This document shows positions 1-31,332 of a stretch of DNA of 55,088 bases, piece after piece. Numbering within the stretch: the stretch's first letter is position 1; the number at the start of each line of letters is the position of its first letter. Under the pieces are notes generated by a model that made no database searches, was not told where the DNA came from, and saw nothing but the letters and a program-made list of their open reading frames with translations. The DNA is from Eubacterium sp. An11 (GTDB lineage: Bacteria > Bacillota > Clostridia > Lachnospirales > Lachnospiraceae): contig NZ_NFLV01000021.1 in NCBI RefSeq assembly GCF_002161065.1, positions 1-55,088 on the forward strand. The letters are read 5' to 3'. The translations under genes were made by a program, and so were the position numbers.

Positions 1-327
1 GGATTTTTGCAAAGGTGGAACAAAGATTTTTCCAATATACAGATGCCATTCGGAGTGCATACAGTTTCCGACCGCGAGCTGTGAGGGAGGACTGTCTAAG
101 ACCTGGAGAAAGCAGGGAGTAGGATGAAAAAAGGGATATCTCTCGTGTTTACACGAGGAGCAGGCCTTTTTTCATCCTGTAAGGCGCAGCCGAAACCGCT
201 TTGCAGTTTCTCCCTGCTGATCAGAAAACATCAGCAGTCCGAGTGAGGGTCGAGTCGGGAGGAACTGTATGAAAACGAATGGCATCGTCTGATATATGAG
301 AAATCTGTTACCACCTTTGCAAATCCC
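1..327. repeat. Structured repeat module (E0), possibly cut by the window edge
   Basis: The ends are near-identical inverted repeats: GGATTTTTGCAAAGGTGG at 1-18 and CCACCTTTGCAAATCCC at 311-327. Inside, the arm GATGCCATTCG (42-52) plus GCATACAGTT (57-66) pairs with AACTGTATG (263-271) and CGAATGGCATC (276-286). A 14-bp perfect stem joins 121-134 to 165-178 and encloses a second stem, CTCGTGT/ACACGAG. The conserved core pieces ACCGCGAGCTGTGAGGGAGG (71-90) and GTCCGAGTGAGGGTCGAG (237-254) recur, inverted, at 22767-22983. It has no coding potential. Its right end lies three bases beyond the stop codon of the minus-strand gene at 331-687. The element may continue left of the window. Confidence 0.75.
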
Positions 328-330
328 AAT

Positions 331-687
331 TTACTGAAATCTCTCCTCGTACTCTTTCTCTTTAAATCCCACCAGTACATAGTCATCCGCCACGATCAGC
401 GGACGTTTTACCAGCATACCGTCTGTGGCAAGAAGATCGTACTGTTCTTCTTCGCTCATGTTTGGCAGGCGGTCTTTGATGTTATTATTCCGGTAAATTT
501 GTCCACTGGTATTGAAGAATCGTTTCAGCGGAAGTCCGCTTTTTTCATGCCAGAGTTTCAGCTCTTCGGCTTTTGGATTATCTTCCACGATGTGACGGTC
601 AATGAATTCCACACCATGATCTTCCAGCCATTTTTTTGCTTTTTTACATGTGCTGCATTTTGGATATTCGATAAATAAAACGCTCAT
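331..687 (-). CDS. ArsC/Spx-family thioredoxin-fold protein
   Basis: A 118-residue cytoplasmic protein of the ArsC/Spx/YffB family, which are thioredoxin-fold proteins that reduce arsenate or glutathionylated substrates or bind RNA polymerase. The N-terminal active-site loop reads YPKCSTCKKAKKWL, a CxxC arrangement as in Spx and YffB-like members. The helical middle and the late RPLIV motif (about residue 95) are typical of the family, and length is normal. The ATG at 687 has an AAGGG-type ribosome site seven bases upstream. No arsR or acr3 gene is near, so a dedicated arsenic role is not supported. Whether it is an Spx-like regulator or a reductase cannot be decided here. Confidence 0.85.
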   Translation of the reverse strand: MSVLFIEYPKCSTCKKAKKWLEDHGVEFIDRHIVEDNPKAEELKLWHEKSGLPLKRFFNTSGQIYRNNNIKDRLPNMSEEEQYDLLATDGMLVKRPLIVADDYVLVGFKEKEYEERFQ

Positions 688-1474: not shown

Positions 1475-1976
1475 CGGATGCCTCCGTGCTTCGCACTCCC
1501 GCCTCCCCGCGGAGCGTTTCCCCTTTTTTGTTGGGAATGCTGGATGCCTCCGTGCTTCGCACTCCCGCCATCCTCCGGGAGCATTCGCATTCCGAGCTTC
1601 CTCTCTCCATGCTCATGTTCCCTTGCCCGTCCGCTGTCCGGGGCTTTCTTTTACCAATAGAGTTTCGCTTGCGAAACTCCTGCGCCGAACGCGGTCGCTG
1701 CAAGCGACTTAATTCCATTCGCGTGAGTGCGCCCCCCGCGGAGCGTTTCCCCTTTTTTGTTGGGAATGCCGGATGCCTCCGTGCTTCGCACTCCCGCCAT
1801 CCTCCGGGAGCATTCGCATTCCGAGCTTCCGCTCTCCATGCTCATGTTCCCTTGCCCGTCCGCTGTCCGGGGCTTTCTTTTACCAATAGAGTTTCGCTTG
1901 CGAAACTCCTGCGCCGAACGCGGTCGCTGCAAGCGACTTAATTCCCTTCGCGTGAGTGCGCCCCCCGCGGAGCGTT
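1475..1976. repeat. Tandem 229-bp direct repeat, two copies plus partials
   Basis: Two copies of exactly 229 bp (1512-1740 and 1741-1969) differ at about three positions. They are followed by the first bases of a third copy (1970-1976) and preceded by a partial copy (about 1475-1511) holding only the GGATGCCTCCGTGCTTCGCA segment. Each unit contains a perfect palindrome GAGTTTCGCTTGCGAAACTC (1661-1680 and 1890-1909) and a GGTCGCTGCAAGCGACT hairpin. It lies between eutP and ung on the minus strand, so it forms part of the ung 5' region. The period is not a multiple of three, and the open frames running through it on both strands look accidental. Confidence 0.93.
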
Positions 1977-19297: not shown

Positions 19298-20449
19298 TTG
19301 AAAAAATATATTACTGCCTTATGCCTGTTTCTTTTGTTTATCCTGTCTCCTTATCATACCATAAATTTGCGTTCAGCGGAAACACCTTCGGGACTTTATG
19401 CCAAAGCCGCCATTCTGATGGATGGGACAAATCAGCGGGTCCTATTTGGAAAAGAAGAAAAAATAGAACTGCCTATGGCAAGCACCACCAAAATCATGAC
19501 CTGCCTATACACTCTGGAACACGGCAATCTCTCAGATGTCGTTACCTTTTCTGAAAGAGCCGCTTCCGCTCCCAAGGTACATCTGGGTGCTAAAGAAGGC
19601 AGTCAGTTCCTTTTATCAGATCTTCTCTACGCCCTCATGCTGGAGTCCTACAATGACGCCGCCGTGGCTATTGCCGAGCATCTGGGCGGTTCCGTGGAGG
19701 CCTTCTGTCAGGCCATGACCGAAGAAGCCCGTTCCTACGGCTGCTATCAGACTTCCTTCGAGACCCCCAATGGTCTGGACAGCGACAATCATTATACCAC
19801 CTGCTACGATCTGGCCATCCTCACCTGTCATGCTCTGAACAATAAAAATTTCCGCAGCATCATCCGGGAACCTTCCTACACCATCAAGGAAATCACCAGC
19901 GGCCAGACCTATTCTCTGAACAACAAAGACGCTTTCCTCACCTCTTATCCCGGCGCCATCGGCGTCAAAACCGGTTTCACCAACAACGCCGGCTACTGTT
20001 TCGTAGGTGCCGTGGAAACCGACGACCGTCTGCTCATCTCCGTAGTGCTGGGCAGCGGCTGGCCACCCAACCGCAGCTATAAATGGAAGGATACCCGCAA
20101 ACTCATGGATTACGGCATGGAGAATTTTGAAAATGTGACCATATCCCTGGGCGACAGCGTTCCCGGGCAGCTTCCTGTGGAACACGGGCAGGCTAAAATC
20201 TGCGACATCAGCCAGCCCGGCACCGCCACCCTTCTTCTGAATCCGGAAGAAGAACAGGCCGTCTGCACCACCGACCTTCTTCCCTGCCTGGACGCCCCCG
20301 TCCGCCAGGGAGATTCCGTCGGCACCGTGACACTGTCCATCAACGAAGAAACCTACCGGACATACCCCGTGACAGCGGCTGCCAGCGTAAAACGCATCAA
20401 CTACCGCTGGTGCCTGGAGAGGCTGGTGAGGGAGTATTTTTATAGATAA
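19298..20449 (+). CDS. dacF: D-alanyl-D-alanine carboxypeptidase (PBP5 type)
   Basis: Trims the terminal D-Ala of peptidoglycan stem peptides outside the cell. The 383-residue protein has a signal peptide (1-28), the serine nucleophile in MASTTKIMT (SxxK), SYN in MLESYNDAA, and KTG in IGVKTGFTNNAGY. A PBP5 C-terminal beta domain follows from about residue 280. The start is a TTG at 19298 preceded by AAAGGAGG at ideal spacing. Its stop codon is immediately followed by a structured repeat (20450). DacF or DacB-like naming is provisional. Confidence 0.93.
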   Translation: MKKYITALCLFLLFILSPYHTINLRSAETPSGLYAKAAILMDGTNQRVLFGKEEKIELPMASTTKIMTCLYTLEHGNLSDVVTFSERAASAPKVHLGAKEGSQFLLSDLLYALMLESYNDAAVAIAEHLGGSVEAFCQAMTEEARSYGCYQTSFETPNGLDSDNHYTTCYDLAILTCHALNNKNFRSIIREPSYTIKEITSGQTYSLNNKDAFLTSYPGAIGVKTGFTNNAGYCFVGAVETDDRLLISVVLGSGWPPNRSYKWKDTRKLMDYGMENFENVTISLGDSVPGQLPVEHGQAKICDISQPGTATLLLNPEEEQAVCTTDLLPCLDAPVRQGDSVGTVTLSINEETYRTYPVTAAASVKRINYRWCLERLVREYFYR

Positions 20450-21063
20450 GGAGTAAATTTCTTTGCAACCCATAGAAGGCTGCTTTACCGAAGACAAGTC
20501 ATTTATAAAAGTTTTCCTCCTCCACTTCGGCAGGCTGACACCTGGCTGTATCTCATCAATATAAATCAGACGCCTGCGCTCACAGTCGTCGTCAAACCAT
20601 ATCAATGACTTGTCTTCTCCAAATGCAGTCTACGTGCATAGAAATTTACAAGAATCCTGTGCTACGTTGGTCAAAACAGTTAGTTATGGCAACATGCGGC
20701 CACTCTGATTTTATAATCTAAAGCAATATCTGTGCAGGCAGCGATAACCTGGTGAGCGAGCCATTCAGGTAGCTTTGCAGTCGTTTTGAATCAGGTGATT
20801 TTGCTATAATCCGGGTAATGCAGACAACAGGGATTTGCGGCATAGTTTGAGGCTGATAGAAAAACGTATCGGGAAAGATCGACGACGACTGTGAGTGCAG
20901 GCGTTTCTGGTAGTCATAAAAGGGGCATAGTTGTCAGCCTGCCGAAGTGGAGGAGGAGACTTCCCTGACTACGTTTTTCTATGGTACATACAAAGCGCAA
21001 ATCCCGTCTGTTCATCCATACCCGGATCATTTCAAGACCTTTAAATTCAAATCGACAAATCCC
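20450..21063. repeat. Composite structured element E1 (module A, linker, module C)
   Basis: It begins GGAGTAAATTTC directly after the dacF-like TAA and ends ACAAATCCC. Module A (20450-20649) has the arm GAAGACAAGTCATTTAT (20490-20506) pairing with ATCAATGACTTGTCTTC (20601-20617), and core pieces CCTCCACTTCGGCAGGCTG (20519-20537) and CAGACGCCTGCGCTCACAG (20567-20585). Module C repeats the core inverted: GACGACTGTGAGTGCAGGCG (20884-20903) and CCTGCCGAAGTGGAGGAGG (20939-20957). Its arms are GAAAAACGTA (20859-20868) and TACGTTTTTC (20970-20979), with outer GGGATTTGCGG (20830-20840) against GCGCAAATCCC (20995-21005). No protein of note is encoded. Confidence 0.9.
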
Positions 21064-21071
21064 ACCTCTCA

Positions 21072-21108
21072 TAAAAATACTCCCGCAGGTCCTCACCCGC
21101 GGGAGTAT
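21072..21108 (-). terminator. Intrinsic terminator after glgA
   Basis: A 10-bp stem, ATACTCCCGC/GCGGGAGTAT (21077-21086 and 21099-21108), is followed on the minus strand by TTTTTATG. It lies 45 bases past the glgA stop and abuts element E1. Confidence 0.9.
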
Positions 21109-21153
21109 ATATTTTATGTTCTTTTATGAATGGCGATAAAAAACAGCCGTCTC

Positions 21154-22605
21154 CTATCTTCCGATCAGCGTATTATACAGCTCTTCGTAACGTTTCTTGG
21201 AAACACCCCAGGACAGGTCTTTCTTCATGCCTCTCTTGACCATGTTATCCCAGACCTTCTTCTGTTCGAAGAAAATGTACTTGCTGTAGTTGATGACATT
21301 CACCATGTCATCTCCATTATAATTGGTGAAAGAGAATCCATCTCCGGTATCCTCAAACTCATTCAGCGGTTCCACCGTATCTTTCAGTCCACCCGTCTCT
21401 CTCACGATCGGAACGGTTCCATAGCGGAAAGCGATAATCTGTGTCAGTCCGCAAGGTTCAAAGAGGGACGGCATCAGAAATGCATCCGCTGCAGCATATA
21501 ATTTATGTGCCAGATCATCGGAGTAAAGGATATTGGCAGATACTTTGTTCGGATAACGATATGCATAATAGCGGAACATATCCTCGTATCTCTGCTCGCC
21601 GGTACCAATGACAACCAGCTGTGTATTATCGTCTACGATTCTTTCCATACCATACTGAATGAGGTCAAGACCCTTCTGGTCTGTCAGTCTGGAAATGAGA
21701 CCGATCAAATACTTATCCGGGTTCACCTCAAGACCCAGCTCTTTCTGGATAGCCTCTTTATTGGCTGCTTTGCCTTTCTTGTAGCTGCGCACATCATAAT
21801 TGGAATAAATAGATCCGTCTGTCTTCGGATTATAGACGGTATAGTCAATACCATTCACGATACCAAACAAACTCTGATTTCTCGCACTCAGAAGGCCGTC
21901 CAGTCCCTCGCCGTAATACGGAGTCTGAATCTCCTGAGCGTAAGTATTGCTCACAGTGGTGATGAAATCAGAATAAACAATTCCACCCTTTAACATATTG
22001 GCGTCTTTCTTATATTCCAGCTTATCCGGTGTGAACAGATAATCCGGAAGTCCGGAAAGCCCCTTGATCGTCTTGATATCCCAGATACCCTGGAAACGCA
22101 GGTTATGAATGGTCATGATCGTCTTGATGCCCCAGAAGAACGGATTCGCCGCAAACTCCGTCTTCAGATATACCGGGATCAGACCTGTCTGCCAGTCGTG
22201 ACAGTGAATGATATCCGGTTTGAAATCCACAATCGGAAGAATGGATAATACTGCTTTACAGAAGAAAATGTACTTCTCCACATCTGTTCTGGTATCGGCA
22301 TATGGCTTCTCAGCGCCAAAATAATCCAGGTTGTCAATGAAATAATAGGTGATGCCATTATACTCATACTTCATAATGCCCACATGAGTATGAGGAACCA
22401 TCGGTCCTGTGCCCATGTAAAAATGTGTGACATACTGGAAAGTGTTACGGAACTTATCCGGAATACCCCGATAGTTCGGCATAATCACTCTGACATCCCA
22501 CTCATTCTTGTCAAACTCTTTTGGCAATGCCCCCACAACGTCTGCAAGTCCCCCCGTTTTCATAAACGGTACACACTCAGAAGCAGCAAATAAAATCTTC
22601 TTCAT
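21154..22605 (-). CDS. glgA: Glycogen synthase (ADP-glucose type)
   Basis: A GT5-family alpha-glucan synthase that extends glycogen from ADP-glucose. The 483-residue protein starts MKKILFAASECVPFMKTGGLADVVGALPKE, with the KxGGL nucleotide-sugar motif. It has the GT-B fold throughout, and a C-terminal domain with LIGLISRLTDQKGLDLI, MPSLFEPCGLTQIIAFRYGTVPIVRETGGLKDTV. Length is normal. AGGAGG lies seven bases before the ATG at 22605. No glgB, glgC or glgD is adjacent; the gene stands alone between two repeat elements. The 160 bases upstream contain a TACAAT -10 candidate but no clear -35. Confidence 0.97.
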   Translation of the reverse strand: MKKILFAASECVPFMKTGGLADVVGALPKEFDKNEWDVRVIMPNYRGIPDKFRNTFQYVTHFYMGTGPMVPHTHVGIMKYEYNGITYYFIDNLDYFGAEKPYADTRTDVEKYIFFCKAVLSILPIVDFKPDIIHCHDWQTGLIPVYLKTEFAANPFFWGIKTIMTIHNLRFQGIWDIKTIKGLSGLPDYLFTPDKLEYKKDANMLKGGIVYSDFITTVSNTYAQEIQTPYYGEGLDGLLSARNQSLFGIVNGIDYTVYNPKTDGSIYSNYDVRSYKKGKAANKEAIQKELGLEVNPDKYLIGLISRLTDQKGLDLIQYGMERIVDDNTQLVVIGTGEQRYEDMFRYYAYRYPNKVSANILYSDDLAHKLYAAADAFLMPSLFEPCGLTQIIAFRYGTVPIVRETGGLKDTVEPLNEFEDTGDGFSFTNYNGDDMVNVINYSKYIFFEQKKVWDNMVKRGMKKDLSWGVSKKRYEELYNTLIGR

Positions 22606-22766
22606 GGTAATCCTCCTCGAATAAAAAGTTTTCCCTTTGTTAATGTATATTCAGGATACTGCGTACGGTCACGTCCAGCTGAAATGCGCGCGGCGGTGCG
22701 TAAGTTCCTTATATTTCATTGTACAACAATTTTGCGTGAATTACTATGATAAATTAAGAAAAAATT

Positions 22767-23402
22767 GAGATTTGTAAAGATGGTAACAGCTATCTGCTCA
22801 GACAGACAATGACGCAAGGGCACATACGGATTCGCCCGTCTCGACCCTCAGTCGGACTGACCAGGGGTATTCATTGTAAAATGATTATATCAGTCCTCCC
22901 TCACAGCTCGCGGTCGAAAGCCGTATGTACCCAAAACGTCATTTGCCTGTTGAAAAGCCTTTGTTTCACCTTTACAAACATCCTGTGCTACGTTGACAAA
23001 ACAGCAGGTTATGGTTACAGACGAATCAACTGATACCCAAATTTATGGTTGTGTCTGCCTGGTATAAACCTGCAGAGCAAGCCACACAGGTAGCTCTTCT
23101 ATCGGTTTGAATTAGGTATTTTTGTTATCATCAATGGACCGTTTAAAAGTCAAAAACTGCCACAATCTGCTGTCTCGCCAGGGTAGCCAGGATTCTTTGT
23201 AAATCTCTATACACGCAGACTGCATTTGGAGAAGACGAGGTATTGATATGGTTTGACGACGACTGTGAGCGCAGGCGTCTGATTTATGTTGATGAAATAC
23301 AACCAGGTACCAGTCTGCCGAAGTGGAGGAGGAGAACTTTTATCAATACCTTGTCTTCGGTAAAGCAGCCTTCTGTGGGCTGCAAAGAGATTTACAAATC
23401 CC
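22767..23402. repeat. Composite structured element E2 (module R1, linker, module C)
   Basis: Ends are GAGATTTGTAAAG (from 22767) and TTTACAAATCCC (to 23402). The left module (22767-22983) is the inverted counterpart of E0: CGACCCTCAGTCGGACTG and CCTCCCTCACAGCTCGCGG cores, with arms CAATGACG (22807-22814) and ACATACGG (22822-22829) pairing with CCGTATGT (22921-22928) and CGTCATTTG (22937-22945). A linker like those of E1 and E3 starts near 22984 (TGCTACGTTGACAAAACAG). The right module has arms GAAGACGAGGTATTGAT (23231-23247) and ATCAATACCTTGTCTTC (23342-23358) around the core (23255-23334). The final base is shared with the hisC stop codon. Confidence 0.9.
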
Positions 23403-24457
23403 TATTTATGCAGATACTCTCTCAAAAACTCCAGAAACTTCCGCATCTCTTCGTCGGTGCCAATGGTGATTCTGAGATAATTGTCAATGCGGTCTTTGTT
23501 AAAGTAGCGCACATAAATATTTTGTTTCCGGGCAGCTTCGAAGATTTCTTTTGCCGGCACGGATTCGTGGGAAGCAAACAAAAAGTTGGCTTTGGAGTCC
23601 GGAAATGTGAAACCGAGGTCCCGCATTTCTTTTGTGAACCACTCTCTGGTGGCTATGATCTTGGCAGTGGTTTCCCGGAAATATGCGTCGTCTTCCACGG
23701 AGGCGGCTCCTAACAGGATGGACGGCTGATTCATGGTGTAGGAATTAAAAGAATATTTCACATCATGAAGGGCACGGATCAGTTCCGGAGATCCCATGGC
23801 ATAGCCGATGCGGAGTCCTGCCAGGGAGCGGGATTTGGAGAAGGTCTGCACGATCAGCAGATTCTCATAAGTGTCAAGAAGGCTCTGGGCAGTCTCGCCG
23901 CCAAAGTCGATATAAGCCTCATCGACGATGACTACCACATCCTGATTATGTTCCAGAATGTCCCGGATGCCGTCAAGGGGCATCAGAATACCTGTGGGCG
24001 CATTGGGATTCGGGAAAATCACGCCGCCGTTTTCCCCGTAATAATCTTCTCTGCGAATCTGAAATGCATCGTCCAGAGCTCTGGTTTCATAAGGAATCCG
24101 GAACAGATCTGCCCACACATCATAAAATGAGTAGGTGATATCCGGAAACAGAATCGGTTTGTCACTGTTAAAAAATGTGAGAAATGACAGCGCCAGCACG
24201 TCGTCGGAACCGACGCCCACGAATACCTGGCTGCGGTCAATACCCTTGTAGCCGGCGATGGCATCCACCAGCCGGGACGCCGCCGGATCCGGATACAGCC
24301 GGAGGTTTTCAATCCGGCTGCACATTTCCTTTACCTTCGGAGAAGGCGGATACGGATTCTCATTGGTATTTAACTTTATCACATCCGTCTCTTTCGGCTG
24401 TTCACCTGGCACATAAGGAATCACCTGACGGATATTTTTTTTCCATGCTTTCATCAT
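23402..24457 (-). CDS. hisC: Histidinol-phosphate aminotransferase
   Basis: A PLP-dependent class I/II aminotransferase that converts imidazole-acetol phosphate to histidinol phosphate. The 351-residue protein has LNTNENPYPPSPKVKE near the N-terminus, VGVGSDDVLALSF, FPNPNAPTGI, VDEAYIDFGG with the PLP Asp, and TFSKSRSLAGLRIGY with the Schiff-base Lys. Length is normal. The start at 24457 has AAGGAG. No other his gene is in the window, so it may also serve aromatic amino acid synthesis, as HisC does in some Firmicutes. Its TAG stop shares its last base with element E2. Confidence 0.92.
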   Translation of the reverse strand: MMKAWKKNIRQVIPYVPGEQPKETDVIKLNTNENPYPPSPKVKEMCSRIENLRLYPDPAASRLVDAIAGYKGIDRSQVFVGVGSDDVLALSFLTFFNSDKPILFPDITYSFYDVWADLFRIPYETRALDDAFQIRREDYYGENGGVIFPNPNAPTGILMPLDGIRDILEHNQDVVVIVDEAYIDFGGETAQSLLDTYENLLIVQTFSKSRSLAGLRIGYAMGSPELIRALHDVKYSFNSYTMNQPSILLGAASVEDDAYFRETTAKIIATREWFTKEMRDLGFTFPDSKANFLFASHESVPAKEIFEAARKQNIYVRYFNKDRIDNYLRITIGTDEEMRKFLEFLREYLHK

Positions 24458-24520
24458 TCATGCATCTCCTTGTCTTCCGGTAATATCACCTGCACACGCA
24501 GGTTTCCGGAATTATTCCGA

Positions 24521-25600
24521 TCATCCCTGCATTTCCTGTAATTTACTCAGTTTCGCAGCCTGGTCCGCTGCTGTGAGGCTGTCGATGATCTCATCCAGAT
24601 CACCATTTAAGATGCTCTCCAGTTTGTGAAGAGTCAATTTGATTCTGTGATCGGTGACACGTCCCTGAGGGAAGTTATACGTACGGATTTTTTCCGCCCG
24701 GTCTCCGGTACCGATCTGGCTCTTTCTAAGTTCCGCCTCCGCATCGTGGGCCTTGGCAGATTCCATCTCGTAAAGTCTCGCACGAAGCACCTTGATGGCC
24801 TTCTCTTTATTCTTAAGCTGGGATTTCTCATCCTGGCAGGACACAACGATTCCGGTAGGAATGTGTGTCAGACGGACCGCCGAGTCGGTGGTGTTGACAC
24901 ACTGTCCGCCGTTACCGGACGCACGGAATACATCAAACCGGCAGTCATTCATATCCAGATGCACATCCACCTCTTCGGCCTCCGGCATGATAGCCACTGT
25001 AATGGTGGACGTGTGGATTCTTCCGCCGGACTCTGTTGCCGGAATCCTCTGCACCCGATGTACGCCACTCTCGTACTTCAGACGGGAGTAAGCGCCATGT
25101 CCGGTGATCATAAAGGAAACTTCCTTAAAACCTCCGATTCCATTCTCATTGACATCGATAAACTCTGTCTTCCACCGTTTGGACTCCGCATAAGACTTAT
25201 ACATACGATAAATTTCCGCCGCGAAAAGCGCCGCCTCATCGCCGCCGGCTCCCGCACGGATTTCCACGATAACGTTCTTGTCATCGTTCGGGTCCTTCGG
25301 CAGAAGAAGGATCTTCAGCTCTTCCTCACATCTTGCCTCAGCCGCCTTGGCATCGGACAGTTCTTCCTTTAACATTTCGCGCATTTCTTCATCGTTCTCA
25401 GCTTCCAGCATCTCCACGCTGTCCTCGATGGTCTGCTTCGCATCTTTGTATTCATTATATTTCTCTACAATGGGCGTCAACTCATTCTGTTCTTTCATAA
25501 GATTACGGAATCTCGTCTGATCATTGACCACGTCCGGTTCACTGAGTTCTTCCATGACCTCTTCCAGACGTTTTACCAAATCTTCCAATCTGTCAAACAT
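24521..25600 (-). CDS. prfA: Peptide chain release factor 1
   Basis: Releases peptides at UAA and UAG. The 359-residue protein has the helical N-terminal domain, the anticodon-mimic loop region, and the catalytic GGQ in [17 protein letters not shown]. It ends with the standard [10 protein letters not shown] segment. The frame is open to 25756, but [14 protein letters not shown] at 25600 is the family start and has AGGAGG six bases upstream. It follows prmC, the enzyme that methylates its GGQ glutamine, by 73 bases. Confidence 0.98.
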
Positions 25601-25673
25601 ACTGTACCTCCTGTTTGTTATCTTTATCATAAAATCATAGCATAAAAAATATGCTGCAGTGTCCGGCGAAACG

Positions 25674-26537
25674 CTAAGGCTCCACATTTTCCGGCCAGCG
25701 CCCCACGGCAATCCGGTCAAGCCCCGCCAGATCCTTTTTAATCTCCGTATTCTCAAAGCCCTGCTCTCTCAATATAGAAAGAAGGTCCTCTCCCTGCTCC
25801 TGTCCAATCTCAAAAATCAGCCAGCCGCCGGGCCGGAGATAGCCCACAGCATCCTCCGCTATGGCGCGGTAAAAATACAAGCCGTCTTCTGTGCCGTCCA
25901 GCGCGATTCTCGGCTCAAACTCCCTGACTTCCGGCATCAGGCCTTCAATCACCCGGGAAGGGATGTACGGCGGATTAGACAAAATGTAATCATAGGAGCC
26001 CTGTATATTTTCAAATAAATCACTCTCTATGGTCCGGACGGAAGCCCCCAGATTCCAGGCATTCTTCTTTGCCACATCCAGCGCTCCTTCCGACACATCG
26101 GAAAGAGTAACCTCCGCCTCCGGGCAGAGCAGCTTCACGCTGATGCCAATGCATCCGCTGCCGGTGCAAATATCCAGCACCTGACAGGATGCCTGCTCAC
26201 GCAGCGTCTGACGTATCTTTTTCACCGCCAGTTCCACCAGGCACTCGGTATCCTGCCTCGGAATCAGCACTCTCTCATCGACCTCAAAGGTATATCCCAT
26301 AAATTCACAGCTCCCCATGAGATACTGCAGAGGGACCCGGCGCTCTCTTTCTCTGAGCACCTCATTGAGGGACATCCACGCCTTGTCCGGGATCTCCCGG
26401 TCAGGATCCATAAAATACTCTGCCCGGCCGATGCCCAGCTTCCATTCCAGAAGCATCCAGACCTCATATTCAAAATCTTCGATTTCTGCTTTTTGTAAGC
26501 GCTTCTGTATTTTTTCTCTGACTTCTTTTACCGTCAT
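25674..26537 (-). CDS. prmC: Peptide chain release factor N5-glutamine methyltransferase
   Basis: Methylates the glutamine of the GGQ motif in release factors using S-adenosylmethionine. The 287-residue protein has the HemK N-terminal helical domain, the SAM motif [15 protein letters not shown] (about 150) and the catalytic NPPYIPS. It begins two bases after the stop of the yqhQ-like gene, with GGAGG overlapping that gene's end, and precedes its substrate gene prfA, an arrangement common in Firmicutes. Confidence 0.96.
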
Positions 26538-26539
26538 GT

Positions 26540-27487
26540 TCAGTCCTCCAGCTCGCCATTGCGCATAGCCCGCACATACTCCCGCCAGTCAAACACACCT
26601 TCCACCGATGCGATGGCAACTTCCAGCATAGAATCATCCGGCTCTTTGGTAGTAAAAAACTGAAGGGACATCCCCGGTTTGCTTAAGATATTCATGATCT
26701 TTGAATCGCTTCTGCCCGCCAGCCGGATAAATTCATAGGAGATTCCGGCAATCACAGGGACCAGGAGCACCCGCAGCAGCATTTTTAACACCGGCTGATC
26801 CACACGGATAAACAAAAATACAATGATACTGACAATCATGACAATCAGCAGAAAGCTGGTGCCGCAGCGCTTATGAAACCGGGAATATTTCCGGATATTT
26901 TCCGGCGTCAGATCTTCGCCGTGTTCCAGGCAGTTGATGGTTTTGTGCTCCGCCCCGTGATACATAAACACCCGGCGGATATCTTCCATCCTGGAAATGA
27001 GCCAGATATATAATAGAAAAATCCCCACCCGGATGACGCCCTCAATGAGGGTGCGCACTGTATAAGACGCAATGACGCCCTCCAGCAGGGTGGACAGATA
27101 AAACGGCAGCAGCATAAAAATCCCCACTGCCAAAATCACGGAAACCGCAATGGTCAGTCCCATGATAACGCTCTCCAGCTTATCTCCGAATATCCTCGTG
27201 AGCGCCTGTTCAAAGCGTCCCGGCTGCGCTTCCTCCTCCTCTTCTTCATAAAAGGAAGAAGAAAACGCCAGGGTCTTCATGCCGATGTACAAAGACTCGA
27301 TGAAGGTGACCACGCCCCGGATGATCGGCACCCGGCAGATGGCGTACCGGTTTCCCAGGCTCTCATATTTGCCCTTCATCACTTCTATCTCATCGTTGGG
27401 CTTGCGGACGGCCACCGCGTACTGCTCCATGTTTTTCATCATGACGCCTTCCATGACCGCCTGCCCTCCGATACTTGTTCTCTTCAA
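26540..27487 (-). CDS. DUF1385 (YqhQ-like) membrane protein
   Basis: A 316-residue membrane protein of the DUF1385 family (B. subtilis YqhQ). It starts near SIGGQAVMEGVMMKN, has about four to five membrane helices (about 105-165 and 200-255), and contains MYHGAEHKTINCLEHGEDLT, a His/Glu/Cys-rich signature of the family. The biochemical role is not established. I place the start at TTG 27487, which has AAGGAGG at seven-base spacing; the ATG at 27505 overlaps that ribosome site and lacks one of its own. It heads the yqhQ-prmC-prfA gene string. Confidence 0.87.
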   Translation of the reverse strand: MKRTSIGGQAVMEGVMMKNMEQYAVAVRKPNDEIEVMKGKYESLGNRYAICRVPIIRGVVTFIESLYIGMKTLAFSSSFYEEEEEEAQPGRFEQALTRIFGDKLESVIMGLTIAVSVILAVGIFMLLPFYLSTLLEGVIASYTVRTLIEGVIRVGIFLLYIWLISRMEDIRRVFMYHGAEHKTINCLEHGEDLTPENIRKYSRFHKRCGTSFLLIVMIVSIIVFLFIRVDQPVLKMLLRVLLVPVIAGISYEFIRLAGRSDSKIMNILSKPGMSLQFFTTKEPDDSMLEVAIASVEGVFDWREYVRAMRNGELED

Positions 27488-27596
27488 ACGGATTCCTCCT
27501 TCCATTTACCGGAAAATGTATCATCATCCAGATGACGACCGTCCCCGCCGGCACATTCGTCCGTGCGGACAGCTCATTTCCGGAAAACTTTCATGT

Positions 27597-27656
27597 AAAG
27601 AGAAAGCGACGACGCTTAAATCACGATATATTACATCATGATACCAGCGCCGCCGC
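27597..27656 (-). terminator. Intrinsic terminator after rpmE
   Basis: On the minus strand GCGGCGGCGCT pairs with AGCGTCGTCGC (complements of 27646-27656 and 27606-27616; two G-U pairs) and TTTCTCTTT follows. The loop holds ATCATGAT and ATCGTGAT, which can pair further. Confidence 0.8.
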
Positions 27657-27677
27657 CTCTATAAAACCATATGGTTA

Positions 27678-27884
27678 TTATTCCTGAGTCATGCCATACT
27701 TACGATTGAACTTGTCAATACGTCCACGAGCCTTAGCAGCCTTCTGCTGTCCTGTGTAAAATGAATGACATTTAGAACAAATCTCTACATGGATATCTTC
27801 CTTTGTAGAACCTGTAACAAATTCGTTGCCGCAGTTGCAGACAACCTTTGCCTGATAATAATTTGGATGGATTCCTTCACGCAT
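27678..27884 (-). CDS. rpmE: 50S ribosomal protein L31
   Basis: A 68-residue large-subunit protein, starting [22 protein letters not shown]. It is the zinc-binding (C+) type, with CNCGN and CSKCH supplying ligands. The ATG at 27884 is preferred over the in-frame GTG at 27893, which forms part of the AGAGGTG ribosome site. It ends [15 protein letters not shown], normal for the family. Confidence 0.97.
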
Positions 27885-28074
27885 CTTCTTCACCTCTTCT
27901 AAACCTATATCTTCATAGTAAATTCATCTATTATTGATGCAAGCATCAATTATCATCGTTACAAACAGCTTTCTCATTATAGCATAGCTCTTATGTAAGC
28001 GCAAGGAGAAAAATTAAAAATATCAACTAAAATTTTCAGAATATATACTTAATATACCGGAAAATCTGACATAT

Positions 28075-28458
28075 TTACCATCTTTTTTCGCCTTCTTTCA
28101 GCCGAATCATCAGACTGGCGATCAGCGCCTGATCCTTCTTCTCCATGGCAGCGTAGATCCCCTCCGGGAAAACCGCGTCCACATTTTTCTCCTTTTCTTC
28201 ATGGAGATGAAAAATCATATTTTCGCTGACTCCCAGAGCCTTTGCTATATAGGGAATGGCGTCACAGGGAGGTTTTCTGGTGCCTCTCTCCCACTTATAA
28301 TAAGTGTCCGCTGACAATTCATACCCGTAATCGTTAATCTTATCCACAATTCTGGCGACACTGAGCCGGCCCTTTTTCTTTCGTATTTCCCTGAGATTCT
28401 CTCCGATATTCTCACGAAACACTTGCCTTGCCTCCTTTTTTTCCGACAGCTTGTCCAA
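28075..28458 (-). CDS. XRE-family helix-turn-helix regulator
   Basis: A 127-residue probable DNA-binding regulator. The HTH domain covers about residues 15-82: IGENLREIRKKKGRLSVARIVDKI, then LSADTYYKWERGTRKPPCDAIPYIAKALGV, the normal XRE helices 2-5. A short helical tail (about 95-127) may mediate dimerisation. It is divergent from the hypothetical gene at 28597; the 138-base region between them has a TATAAT -10 on the minus strand near 28499-28504. Target unknown; self-regulation and control of its neighbour are plausible. Confidence 0.85.
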   Translation of the reverse strand: MDKLSEKKEARQVFRENIGENLREIRKKKGRLSVARIVDKINDYGYELSADTYYKWERGTRKPPCDAIPYIAKALGVSENMIFHLHEEKEKNVDAVFPEGIYAAMEKKDQALIASLMIRLKEGEKRW

Positions 28459-28596
28459 AAATCCCTTCTCCTTTGGACAGATTAAACCTACTCAAAAATT
28501 ATAACATAATGTATCATTTTTAAATAGAAACTGTCGTGCACACTTTTCTGACAGGATAATAAAAAATCAGACAAAATTAGAAAGGGGCCAGTGCAA

Positions 28597-29031
28597 ATGT
28601 ACTCTGATTTACTATTACCGCATCTCCAGCGGGAGATGATCGAAAACTACTTTGAAATATGCTGCTATTTCATCATGACAAAACGTTTCGAACAGCAGGA
28701 AGATCTTCTCCGGTTAAATTATTATAAGTCACTTCTCCTGACAGAACCTTTTCCGCAGCTTTCCAGCAAAAACAAGCTGGATCTGGAAATCATCTCCTGT
28801 ACTAAAGATGTCAAAGACCAGCTTCTCCATACATACCCGTCCGAATTCATCATTCGGATCATCGACTCCGGCATCCACGTATTTTTTGATAAAATGGAAC
28901 GCTACGCCGCCATCGATGTCCGTCTCCGGAGCCTGCCGGAACTTTATACCTATTTTACCGCCATGTCACCGGTAATCATAGAAAAACTGAAAAAGACCAT
29001 CCGCCGGGAATTTCACTTTGGCACCGCATAA
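28597..29031 (+). CDS. Hypothetical protein, 144 residues
   Basis: I do not recognise this protein. It is predicted cytoplasmic and mostly helical, with no signal peptide, and begins YSDLLLPHLQREMIENYFEI. It has several aromatic and Cys residues (ICCYF), LIISCTKDVKDQLLHTYP-like middle sequence and a basic C-terminus (KLKKTIRREFHFG). I start it at the ATG 28597, nine bases after AAAGGGG; an in-frame GTG at 28591 is too close to that site. It faces the XRE regulator divergently and converges on the CpXC gene, and codon use matches its neighbours. Confidence 0.6.
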   Translation: MYSDLLLPHLQREMIENYFEICCYFIMTKRFEQQEDLLRLNYYKSLLLTEPFPQLSSKNKLDLEIISCTKDVKDQLLHTYPSEFIIRIIDSGIHVFFDKMERYAAIDVRLRSLPELYTYFTAMSPVIIEKLKKTIRREFHFGTA

Positions 29032-29095
29032 ATCACCTGCCGTTCCAAACCACCGGAAAATACATTCTGGCAAAATCCGCTTTTATATAGAAGAC

Positions 29096-29737
29096 TCAGC
29101 TTCGCATAAAGAAAATATCTCCCGCCCATTTCATGTCGACTTTCATAAAATCGTCTGTGGAATGGGCTTTGATCTGCCGCTCATACCGGCTGGCAGTACT
29201 GCGGTACAGTTCCAGATCAAAAGGCATTCTCCCGATTCCCTTTTTTTCAAAAAATACAAGGAAATACATCTGGTTTCCATTGTAATCAAAAAGAATGTTC
29301 ATAAGGGTATCTTCCTTCATCTCCTTCTCCAGCCGGCGCAGATAAGCGATTTTTACCAGCTCAACCACCCGGTCATCCAGAAGATTCTCAGCGATCATGA
29401 TCTTTTCTTTCAGATCATTGATATTGTCGACCACCCGGAGAGTCATTCCCTTTCTGCTCTTCCACTTCTCCAGCTGTTCCATGTCCGTCTCCTCCGTGGA
29501 TAAACAGATGGCCAGCTTCTTTTTGCTGTCCAGATACATACTCTCATAAGTCAGCGGAGCCACCAGATCACAATTTTCACAGTCAAAATTAAAAATCCGG
29601 TTCTTTAAGATATCCTCCTTCATGGCCGGTTTTTCCGTGACATTGATCACCGAATACTTTTTCAGATGATGGGCGTGTCCGCACTTCGGACATTTTAATT
29701 CTTCTATACTATATTGGGTCATGGTATCACTGCTCAT
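29096..29737 (-). CDS. CpXC-domain protein
   Basis: A 213-residue protein with an N-terminal CpXC domain: CPKCGHAHH at about residues 16-24 and FDCENCDL near 52-59 form a predicted zinc site. The remainder is a mixed alpha/beta region without a motif I can assign, ending with an aromatic stretch (MKWAGDIFFMRS). CpXC proteins are common in Clostridia but of unknown function. The ATG at 29737 has GGGAGG nine bases upstream. It converges on the hypothetical gene at 28597-29031 and is divergent from bioY. Confidence 0.8.
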   Translation of the reverse strand: MSSDTMTQYSIEELKCPKCGHAHHLKKYSVINVTEKPAMKEDILKNRIFNFDCENCDLVAPLTYESMYLDSKKKLAICLSTEETDMEQLEKWKSRKGMTLRVVDNINDLKEKIMIAENLLDDRVVELVKIAYLRRLEKEMKEDTLMNILFDYNGNQMYFLVFFEKKGIGRMPFDLELYRSTASRYERQIKAHSTDDFMKVDMKWAGDIFFMRS

Positions 29738-29795
29738 TTTCTTCTGCCTCCCTTTTTATCATATAAATGCATCAGCTTTCAGGCCTTCTTTGTTT

Positions 29796-29857
29796 AATTG
29801 TCAACCATATTCTCAAATACCGGTTGACAATTTGTTATCATATCGTTATGATAACAA
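29796..29857 (+). promoter_or_regulatory. bioY promoter with two adjoining palindromic operators
   Basis: AATTGTCAACC (29796-29806), 15 bases, then GGTTGACAATT (29822-29832) is a perfect 11-bp inverted repeat of the BirA-operator type (TTGT-AACC N15-16 GGTT-ACAA). The right half contains the -35 TTGACA (29824-29829); 17 bases later is the -10 TATGAT (29847-29852). A second perfect palindrome, TTGTTATCAT-ATCGTT-ATGATAACAA (29832-29857), covers the spacer and -10. BirA control is well known for bioY genes; the second palindrome is unassigned. Confidence 0.8.
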
Positions 29858-29979
29858 TATAATCTATCAGCCTGATATTTTTTCGCATCATTCCCTGGAA
29901 TCTTATCATACAACTATCCTGCCAAATTGGCAAATAATTTCCCTGCGAAAACGGGCTGCCGGAAGGAAAGGAGTACATT

Positions 29980-30570
29980 ATGCTTTTATCAGACAAAAAA
30001 ATGATTTCCAACTCAAAAAGAACGGGCGCCTCAAGGCGCGCTTTCACCACCAGACAGATGACTCTCTCCGCCATCATGGCCGCCGTCATCTGCATTCTTG
30101 GTCCCCTGTCCATCCCCATCCCGGTGAGTCCGGTTCCCATCACCCTCACCAACCTGGCTATCTACTTTACCGTATGTATCCTGGGGTGGAAACTGGGCAC
30201 TGTCAGTTATCTCATCTATCTCGTCATCGGCCTGGCCGGTCTTCCGGTCTTCTCATCCTTTGGCGCCGGCTTCGGAAAATTACTGGGCCCCACCGGCGGA
30301 TACCTCATCGGTTTTATCTTCATGGCGATCATCTGCGGCCTGTTCTTCGAAAAAACCGATAACCGAATCGTTCTGTTCCTTGGCCTCATTCTGGGTTCTC
30401 TGGTCAACTATCTCTTCGGCACGGCATGGCTGGCCGTACAGGCCAGCCTTACCTTCTCCCAGGCACTGTGGGCCGGCGTGATTCCGTATATTCCGGCCGA
30501 TCTCATCAAAATACTGCTGGCTGTGATGCTGGCTCCGCCGCTGCAAAAAAGATTGCAGAGGGATTTGTAA
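29980..30570 (+). CDS. bioY: Biotin transporter substrate-binding subunit BioY
   Basis: The S-component of an ECF-type biotin transporter. The 196-residue membrane protein has six predicted helices from residue 27 on and the family signatures PIPVSPVPITLTNLAIYF, the GxGKLLGPTGGYLIGF stretch and a terminal AGVIPYIPADLIKILLA. The N-terminal 22 residues are basic and soluble. The ATG at 29980 has GGAAAGGAG. No EcfA or EcfT genes are adjacent, so it would use a shared energising module. The last codons and the TAA stop lie inside repeat element E3, so the C-terminal Arg-Asp-Leu appears to be element-encoded. Confidence 0.95.
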   Translation: MLLSDKKMISNSKRTGASRRAFTTRQMTLSAIMAAVICILGPLSIPIPVSPVPITLTNLAIYFTVCILGWKLGTVSYLIYLVIGLAGLPVFSSFGAGFGKLLGPTGGYLIGFIFMAIICGLFFEKTDNRIVLFLGLILGSLVNYLFGTAWLAVQASLTFSQALWAGVIPYIPADLIKILLAVMLAPPLQKRLQRDL

Positions 30571-31176
30571 ATCTCTTTGCAACCCATAGAAAACTACTTT
30601 ACCGAAGACAAGCCATTGATAAAAGTTCTCCTCCTCCACTTCGGCAGGCTGGCACTTGGCTATATCTCATCAATATAAATCAGACGCCTGCACTCACAGT
30701 CGTCGTCAAACCCTATCAATGGCTTGTCTTCTCCAAATGTACTCTGCGTGCATAGAGATTTGCAAGGATTCTGTACTACGCTGGCAAAACAGTGGGTTAT
30801 GGCGGCAAGAGGACCAGCCGATACCAAAATTTACAGTTGTGTATGTCTGAATGATATGAACCTGCTGAGCAGGCCATCCAGGTAGCTCTTTTGTCGGTTT
30901 AAATCCGGTGATTTTGCTGTAATCCGGGTGATGCGGATGGCAGGGATTTGCGGCATGGTCTTTGTATTGAAAAACGTATCGGGAAAGATCGACGACGACT
31001 GTGAGCGCAGGCGTTGGATAGTAATATATGAATGTAGCCATATGTCAGTCTGCCGAAGTGGAGGAGGAGACTTTCCCGGCTACGTTTTTCTATGATAAAT
31101 CTAACGCCGCAAATCCCGTCTGATTATCCATCTCCGGATCATTTCAAAACCGATAGATTCAAATCGATCAATCCCC
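30560..31176. repeat. Composite structured element E3 (module A, linker, module C)
   Basis: It starts GGGATTTGTAAATCTC, of which TTGTAA gives the last sense codon and stop of bioY, and ends near GATCAATCCCC. The module A arm GAAGACAAGCCATTGAT (30604-30620) pairs perfectly with ATCAATGGCTTGTCTTC (30715-30731). The module C core GACGACTGTGAGCGCAGGCG (30994-31013) and GTCTGCCGAAGTGGAGGAGG (near 31048-31067) repeats module A inverted, with arms GAAAAACGTATCGGGAAAG and CTTTCCCGGCTACGTTTTTC. The linker TACTACGCTGGCAAAACAG and GGTTTAAATCCGGTGATTT match those of E1. Length is 617 bp. Confidence 0.9.
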
Positions 31177-31256
31177 AATGAACATAAAAATGCTGTAAAA
31201 GAGCGAAAAAATACTACAACTTCACGAATCGTTTCCCCCTTTTCCATTTATACATA

Positions 31257-31332
31257 TGCTATAATGATTTTGTTATTGATTGTCACGTATTTGCAACAGA
31301 GATTTTGAACACCGGTTCGGAATCTCTGTTTT
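31257..31332 (+). promoter_or_regulatory. Extended -10 promoter and leader hairpin before the hydrogenase genes
   Basis: TGCTATAAT (31257-31265) is an extended -10 without a good -35. About 30 bases on, ACAGAGATT (31296-31304) pairs with AATCTCTGT (31321-31329), with an inner GAAC/GTTC stem, and TTTTC follows. This resembles a weak intrinsic terminator between the promoter and the start at 31381, so read-through could be regulated. Confidence 0.5.

Follow-up and report, generated by a model that had tools for sequence, protein, structure and literature searches.

MITEs carry terminal inverted repeats and have no coding capacity. REP units are described in PMC3733652 as being 20-40 bp long and as carrying a GTAG or CGTC tag that is left unpaired; in the same account REP dimers and REPINs are dispersed, non-autonomous pairs of inverted, often dissimilar hairpins about a spacer, which are found beside the 3' ends of ORFs and whose termini can provide the stop codon. 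The BOX repeats of Streptococcus pneumoniae, as described in PMC3049150, are composite and modular, with strong secondary structure, a dispersed distribution and few recent insertions.

Here we describe a repeat from Eubacterium sp. An11, present in a window of 55,088 nucleotides (the whole stretch of DNA analysed). It resembles these small repeats known from bacteria, though at a larger size and with exchangeable modules. It shares with REP dimers and REPINs the design and placement outlined above. However, its modules measure ~130 nt or more and its elements 429-895 bp, its core is nearly invariant, its outer ends are of GGGATTTGT type, and, unlike the case of RAYT-mobilised REPs and REPINs, a dedicated intact Y1 transposase was not found, the genome (G000) holding partial matches only. 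With BOX it has in common a composite, modular make-up, strong secondary structure, dispersal and few recent insertions, but by description, on which alone the two were compared, it has two similar inverted modules where BOX has the order boxA-boxB(n)-boxC. Like MITEs it has terminal inverted repeats and is dispersed and, as far as the four window ORFs tested indicate, non-coding; what sets it apart from them is the covarying hairpins in its interior, which share a conserved core, and no target-site duplication was recognised and no parent transposon found. An earlier description was not found in the open-licence literature, partly judged by title, on Anaerobutyricum, Eubacterium hallii, Lachnospiraceae repeats and Firmicutes REPIN/RAYT systems.

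Three elements lie in the window where a first-pass annotation had placed them, and a fourth copy is cut short at the contig start (Table 1). E1 and E3 align as four ungapped direct-repeat blocks of 65-223 nt at 82-89% identity, and the right part of E2, once inverted, aligns to the left part of E1 at 87% identity over 218 nt and to that of E3 at 85% over 245 nt. These alignments, together with 101 places found across the whole genome by BLAST with E1 as query, confirm that the three are one family, as the annotation had held. Its description of inverted outer ends and of a second module carrying the same core inverted stood in part: GGGATTTGT-type ends are present, but the left end of E1 is eroded and lacks a full GGGATTTGT, and modules are indeed inverted, but the first module of E2 has a diverged B core, so that the two modules of an element need not carry one core in opposite orientations. 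The annotation could not match the core to a known ncRNA, and Rfam 15 gave no element match at gathering level in the whole window, nor at E up to 1 within 20400-31300; a single weak match (27602-27683) falls outside the elements. No Pfam match was obtained for the four tested ORFs that overlap elements in the window. Promoter-like (21 versus 17.1 in shuffles) and terminator-like (18 versus 10.2) patterns within 20400-31300 were near or modestly above the shuffled level and were left out of the argument. Beyond the annotation, the analysis adds that this is a dispersed, mobile-type repeat abutting stop codons, that it has a second module type, and that modules differ at corresponding sites in relatives.

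Table 1. Repeat elements of the window and their parts.
Feature	Coordinates	Strand	Remarks
Element E1: A1 module, linker, A2 module	20450..21063	.	left end eroded
E1 A1 hairpin	20490..20622	-	arms GAAGACAAG/CTTGTCTTC; A core 20510-20595, minus strand
E1 linker	20647..20833	.	approximate, by-eye bounds; other copies hold similar stretches
E1 A2 hairpin	20858..20990	+	arms AGAAAAACG/CGTTTTTCT; A core 20879-20962
Element E2: B module, linker, A1 module	22767..23402	.	
E2 B hairpin	22790..22955	-	core CTGTGAGGGAGGACTG ... CAGTCCGACTGAGGGTCGAG
E2 A1 hairpin	23225..23360	+	A core 23253-23338
Element E3: A1 module, linker, A2 module	30560..31176	.	
E3 A1 core	30624..30709	-	
E3 A2 core	30989..31073	+	
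Fourth copy, truncated by contig start: B module	~1..333	.	nested insert in apical loop; terminal TTTGCAAATCCCAATTT; by-eye bounds

Across the genome, a draft assembly of 104 contigs of which several terminate inside elements, 32 elements were delimited, their bounds drawn by eye from end motifs and some ends being eroded. Each has a linker between two hairpin modules of opposite orientation, closed off by inverted ends of GGGATTTGT type, the modules being of types A1, A2 and B, with the B core diverged from the A core; by inspection, inverted pairing of modules was observed at 30 loci. Exact copies of the end motif GGGATTTGTAAA number 36, rising to 86 when up to one mismatch is allowed, versus 7 for a reversed-pattern control. 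The A core has 43 matches and the B half 39 similar places genome-wide, and 45 distinct A cores were used to build a model (R1). The core is nearly invariant, yet much of it is without Watson-Crick pairing; GACGAC/GTCGTC is present in the A core, inside the hairpin.

The annotation had proposed that the hairpin arms vary together. The changes on which it drew (AGTCATT/AATGACT, AGCCATT/AATGGCT and AGGTATT/AATACCT in the arms, AAATTTC/GAAATTT versus AAATCTC/GAGATTT at the outer ends) are present in the sequence, and covariation was borne out on the wider family. Both-sided changes that keep the pair were found at six pairs (14 of 712 cells) among 21 A1-type modules, at three pairs (21 of 780 cells) among 26 A2-type modules and at 10 pairs (26 of 1342 cells) among 32 B modules, and in each set none of 500 shuffles matched either the cell counts or the covariation score. 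Two other measures were less exceptional: 90 of 500 shuffles reached the number of both-sided-change pairs in the A2-type set, and for further pair types the observed number was reached in 199, 168 and 31 of 500 in the three sets. The A sets come from 49 sorted modules, with one of neither type (L032) and one with a deletion (L025) excluded and three script-classed A1 modules reassigned by eye to the A2 alignment, including L167, a chimera of an A1-type left arm and an A2-type right arm; the B set comes from 40, less six with a core of at least 110 nt and two with different arms (L007, L017). The signal emerged once the A1 and A2 arms were aligned separately: with mixed A1/A2 modules, RNAalifold gave both-sided change at 0 of 15 pairs, and the core alone showed it in eight cells, at one of 13 pairs.

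The covariation supports the annotation's reading of selection for a folded RNA or DNA. On the sense strand G.T pairs, found at 35 pairs in 122 cells, outnumber A.C mismatches, found at 17 pairs in 18 cells (by pair, P = 0.009), which is moderate evidence that one strand folds and that the arms are not simply corrected as passive palindromes. With pairs pooled from folds of both strands the ratio was 46:10 for A1 but only 40:33 for A2, the latter counting against this reading. Alifold energies also favour the sense over the antisense strand (-45.3/-23.9, -34.6/-23.6 and -47.9/-33.1), as do those of four modules folded as RNA (-44.6/-34.8, -41.7/-31.5, -48.8/-35.7 and -63.8/-47.1 kcal/mol, sense versus other strand). 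The energy of the E1 A2 hairpin is itself unexceptional (z = -1.96; 10 of 200 shuffles equally good), and folding of three A modules under DNA parameters failed to reproduce the extended A-core helix. The sequence is compatible with either RNA or DNA as the folded strand.

Elements tend to abut the ends of genes. For 23 of 31 elements a stop codon is found no more than 13 nt from a boundary, with 12.0 expected. In this count the cut-off was chosen after the distances were known, a stop was taken as adjacent even if it fell as far as 12 nt within the element, and spacer lengths were supplied manually, several of them read by eye, with 100 nt assumed in two cases. Gene calls for this count were ORFs of at least 100 codons in the 900-bp flanks (not the longest ORF for E3 and C13_36558), and one of the 32 elements, without a gene call, was omitted. 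In the window, E1 begins immediately after a Peptidase_S11 gene whose TAA stop has its last base at 20449, E2 adjoins the stop of a minus-strand aminotransferase gene (23402-24457), and the BioY gene upstream of E3 (29980-30570) owes its TAA stop to the left end of that element. Diverged A modules in sense orientation were also seen between the end of an LPXTG-type gene and a sortase-like gene, at two loci in this genome and in its relative G023, the gene names being assigned from reading the sequence.

Among the genomes searched, the repeat is confined to four related ones: four of 24 in the genus match, namely this genome and its three nearest by glgA, and samples of the family (397 genomes) and order (392) returned only this genome, apart from two family-level model matches judged to be chance, one inside a long ORF (G245) and one weak (G051). 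Plasmid and phage collections gave no match to E1, and the core pattern matched viral contigs only once, within ordinary coding sequence, which was likewise judged to be chance. Corresponding sites in relatives vary in both occupancy and content. The element is absent at the E1 site in G023, G001 and G022, and at the E3 and C23_40047 sites in G023; the E2 site is occupied in this genome and likewise in G023 and G001, and the four more distant relatives compared showed no element there. Where sites are shared, modules can differ, the E2 site being B-A1 here versus B-A2 in G023 and the C18_26331 site A1-A2 versus A2-B. Within this genome (n = 32), the 68 pairs whose alignment covers 90% of the shorter copy reach at most 92.6% identity (median 85%), and thus do not demonstrate recent transposition; in G001 and G023 the best copy pairs are 96% identical over about 300 nt.

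A transposase with matching ends was not found, which counts against reading the repeat as mobile. Y1 (IS200/RAYT-type) transposases occur in 16 of the 24 genus genomes, a distribution that does not track the repeat family and leaves Y1/RAYT unsupported as the mobiliser; this genome has only two partial matches to PF01797 (positions 25-121 and 26-63 of 121) and G022 none, an absence that is not certain because the genomes are drafts. Some 6.3 kb at one corresponding site in G023 was considered as an autonomous copy and rejected, its ORFs looking, as read by eye, like PTS- and beta-glucosidase-type genes, with no transposase recognised among them. No clean target-site duplication was definable at element ends or at the compared sites: AAATT/AAATG precedes many ends, as an inverted and not a direct repeat, and the element-free sites of relatives are too diverged to read.

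These observations bear on three other explanations. Long palindromic arms are substrates of quasipalindrome correction, and covariation might arise from template switching between arms during replication, with no selection on the fold. Arms that differ among copies while pairing persists would fit such an origin, but strand-symmetric correction does not give the sense-strand excess of G.T over A.C (a point that is weak for A2 with another pair list), and the core is nearly invariant though much of it is not Watson-Crick paired; we regard this account as distinctly improbable. That the elements are MITEs of a DDE transposon, their modules being double-stranded transposase binding sites and the palindromes secondary, would agree with the terminal inverted repeats, the inverted internal blocks and the four overlapping ORFs without Pfam match. 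We nevertheless consider it unlikely, given that what covariation preserves is pairing and not sequence, that a target-site duplication was not recognised, and that neither a long copy nor a parent transposon with the same ends was noticed among the end motifs of the draft genome, as judged by inspection.

The elements could instead be structured regulatory RNAs, whose intercistronic or 3'-UTR hairpins would stop ribosomes or protect or process mRNA and be bound via the core. Their position at stop codons, the greater stability of the sense strand of the four modules folded as RNA and the sense-oriented modules before sortase-like genes are consistent with such a role, and REPs no more than 15 nt from a stop are reported in PMC12306157 to stall ribosomes. 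Against it, presence and module type at a given site differ between species, and the inverted design places one module antisense in any transcript. We consider this explanation possible but doubtful.

On the evidence above, the elements are probably a non-autonomous, dispersed, mobile-type repeat that would work in the manner of REP dimers, REPINs and BOX elements, made up of two inverted modules (A1, A2 or B), a linker and GGGATTTGT-type ends. Such a repeat would have spread in the ancestor of the four-genome clade, each module acting as a folded single strand, the strand that runs from the linker outwards. A trans-acting transposase or recombinase, as a candidate enzyme class, may recognise the invariant, partly non-Watson-Crick core, and the copies would now diversify mainly by recombination with each other. 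Because they lie after stop codons, the elements would be expected to be co-transcribed and to fold into hairpins within the mRNA, either in its 3' part or between cistrons, as REP sequences do. Only tentatively do we suggest that they represent a putative, previously undescribed class of two-ended single-strand-hairpin elements, in which the A and B modules would be homologous, the core would alternate C-G pairs with tandem G.A/A.G, a predicted protein would both move the elements and act on the mRNAs that carry them, and the module in the pilin-sortase operons would be kept vertically as a cis-acting RNA.

The repeat brings the plan of a REP dimer, inverted hairpins after stops, to a Lachnospiraceae-type lineage, where it is enlarged several-fold and its modules can be exchanged. 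Its nearly invariant and apparently non-Watson-Crick core offers a clear starting point in the search for its recognition protein, and the sites that carry different modules in sister species make module exchange directly open to study.

The three composite hairpin elements proposed by the first-pass annotation, E1 to E3, were borne out at their coordinates by the sequence found there, with E1 and E3 matching in four blocks at 82-89% identity. The right part of E2, when inverted, aligns with the left part of each of them. In the draft genome holding them (G000; 3.9 Mb in 104 contigs, the window being contig C19), a BLAST search with E1 as query found 101 places, the copy-number check with a covariance model built on the A core (described below) gave 43 matches, and the B half of E2 was found at 39 places, part of them partial. 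The end motif GGGATTTGTAAA occurs 36 times exactly and 86 times at no more than one mismatch, against 7 for a reversed-pattern control. Using these ends, we delimited by eye 32 elements of 429-895 bp; several contigs end inside repeat copies, and the window itself starts inside one.

Locations of the elements and of other features observed (G001 and G023, related genomes of the genus; L-numbers, single repeat loci)
Feature	Location	Content
E1	window 20450-21063	A1-linker-A2
E2	window 22767-23402	B-linker-A1
E3	window 30560-31176	A1-linker-A2
Further copy	window, about 1-333	
Apical-loop insert of B	window, ~109-217	own stems
Tandem duplication	window 1505-1962	229 bp, 99% identical; Clostridiales-1 RNA (RF01699), minus strand, in each copy
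L110	G001 C55, 1084-2040	three more weak A-like cores, 24.9-32.1 bits, ~430 bp apart, in tandem
L108	G000 C14	two diverged A modules, sense
L109	G000 C31	one diverged A module, sense
L118	G023 C19	one diverged A module, sense

Each element consists of a linker flanked by two hairpin modules, and inspection of 30 scanned loci showed the conserved strand of each module running from the linker outwards, so that the two are inverted to each other. Three kinds of module occur: A1 and A2, which differ in their arms and have the core GACGACGACTGTGAGCGCAGGC ... GCCTGCCGAAGTGGAGGAGG in common, and B, with the core CTGTGAGGGAGGACTG ... CAGTCCGACTGAGGGTCGAG. The earlier description of two modules carrying the same core in inversion thus fits E1 and E3 but not E2. 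By inspection, A and B look homologous, with CTGTGAG on the left and CCGA..TG.AGG on the right. The strands of the A core could pair C with G at every third position, as proposed by alifold and by single RNA folds, with G.A and A.G oppositions between, which we read as tandem G.A. An insert of about 110 nt occupies the apical loop in five of 40 B modules, and a shorter one that of another; the longer insert, with its own stems (GCAGGGAG...CTCCCTGC), was seen at L012, L033, L042, L063, L171 and in the window, and is perhaps a separate repeat. Some copies contain short hairpins lacking the core (C24 of G000, L040 of G023), and in G000 copy L123 no longer has its A1 core. At L040, L043 and L117 (G023) and L034 (G022, another related genome), elements or repeat stretches hold short hairpins of the ACGGTT...AACCGT type in arrays. 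By inspection, L112-L116 (G022) are single A hairpins with arms differing from those of G000, adjoined in L112-L115 by a B-like stretch.

The arms covary, as the first-pass annotation had argued. In the RNAalifold structures, 97.9% of cells are paired in A1-type (n = 21), 97.8% in A2-type (n = 26) and 98.4% in B modules (n = 32), with both-sided changes at 6, 3 and 10 pairs, respectively. The covariation score was reached by none of 500 shuffles in each set, the shuffles ignoring relatedness, and slid controls lean towards the structures since these derive from the same alignments. The A2-type count of pairs with both-sided changes was unexceptional (matched by 90/500 shuffles), and so were the additional pair types counted in the A1- and A2-type sets (199/500 and 168/500); in B modules the latter count was reached by 31/500. 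On the sense strand, read from the linker outwards, G.T filled 122 cells at 35 pairs versus 18 cells at 17 pairs for A.C (p 0.009 by pair, relatedness uncorrected; the pairs were taken from RNA folds of the sense strand, in which G.U is allowed). From the pooled pair list the values were 46 versus 10 in A1 and just 40 versus 33 in A2. We take these counts as moderate support for folding of one strand in vivo. Folded singly as RNA, three of four modules were much stabler than shuffles (z -4.6, -4.8 and -6.1), whereas the A2 hairpin of E1 was not (z -1.96). DNA parameters largely reproduced the B fold and did not recover the extended A-core helix.

Within the genus, four of 24 genomes match (G000 43, G001 10, G023 8, G022 5), and G001, G022 and G023 are the closest to G000 by glgA DNA (89, 88 and 86%; next genome 81%). 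A search of a named genome collection for the exact core gave nine stretches; six belong to Eubacteriaceae bacterium CHKCI004, and Candidatus Anaerobutyricum avicola contributed the other three. In samples scoring 11 candidates per genome, at the loss of weak matches, three of 397 family genomes exceeded the limit, namely G000 itself and two whose matches were judged chance; under a stricter limit G000 was the one match among 392 genomes of the order.

Of the 31 elements for which a gene was called, 23 have a boundary no more than 13 nt from the stop of a long ORF, where 12.0 are expected if insertion is uniform across the remaining spacer; the limit was set after the distances were seen, stops up to 12 nt inside the element are included, and spacer lengths were entered by hand, several of them read by eye and two taken as 100 nt. 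The end motif of E3 provides the TAA of a BioY gene, and other elements have a stop at +11 or +12.

The best supported reading is a non-autonomous dispersed repeat working like REP dimers or BOX elements, in which a trans-acting enzyme would recognise the folded strand. No mobilising enzyme emerged: the distribution of Y1 transposases does not track the family, and four tested ORFs overlapping elements had no Pfam match. The family works like both REP/REPIN and MITE. It differs from REP/REPIN in unit size, and a dedicated intact Y1 transposase was not seen in the draft genome, so it is not filed there; nor is it filed as a proven MITE, with no target-site duplication readable and no parent transposon, or long copy with the same ends, noticed in the G000 end-motif list. 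AAATT or AAATG precedes many ends, inverted between the two sides. An RNA role for the elements is a serious rival, favoured by the diverged A modules of L108, L109 and L118, which lie in sense orientation between the end of an LPXTG-type gene and a sortase-like gene (names from reading the sequence) and may be cis elements retained through vertical inheritance.

Corresponding sites in relatives bear on the history of this dispersed repeat. The E1 site has no element in G023, G001 or G022; the E2 site has one in G000, G023 and G001, and none was seen in four more distant relatives inspected. Within 1.19 Mb of G023 plus the glgA locus, both flanks of 14 of the 32 G000 sites were matched on a single contig, and the 12 of these that were read comprised seven with an element or remnant, four without (E1, E3, C23_40047 and C8_72435) and one ambiguous (C28_222577). 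Modules can differ at filled sites, with B-A1 in G000 versus B-A2 in G023 at E2 and A1-A2 versus A2-B at C18_26331, and one module, L167, is a hybrid whose left arm is A1-type and whose right arm is A2-type. Among G000 copies, the 68 pairs aligning over 90% of the shorter reach at most 92.6% identity (median 85%), and comparison of copies from G001 and G023 gave best pairs of 96% across some 300 nt, so that recent jumps are not evident from copy identities in these three genomes. These limited identities and the differing modules at filled sites suggest an older spread of the family, with reshuffling since then.
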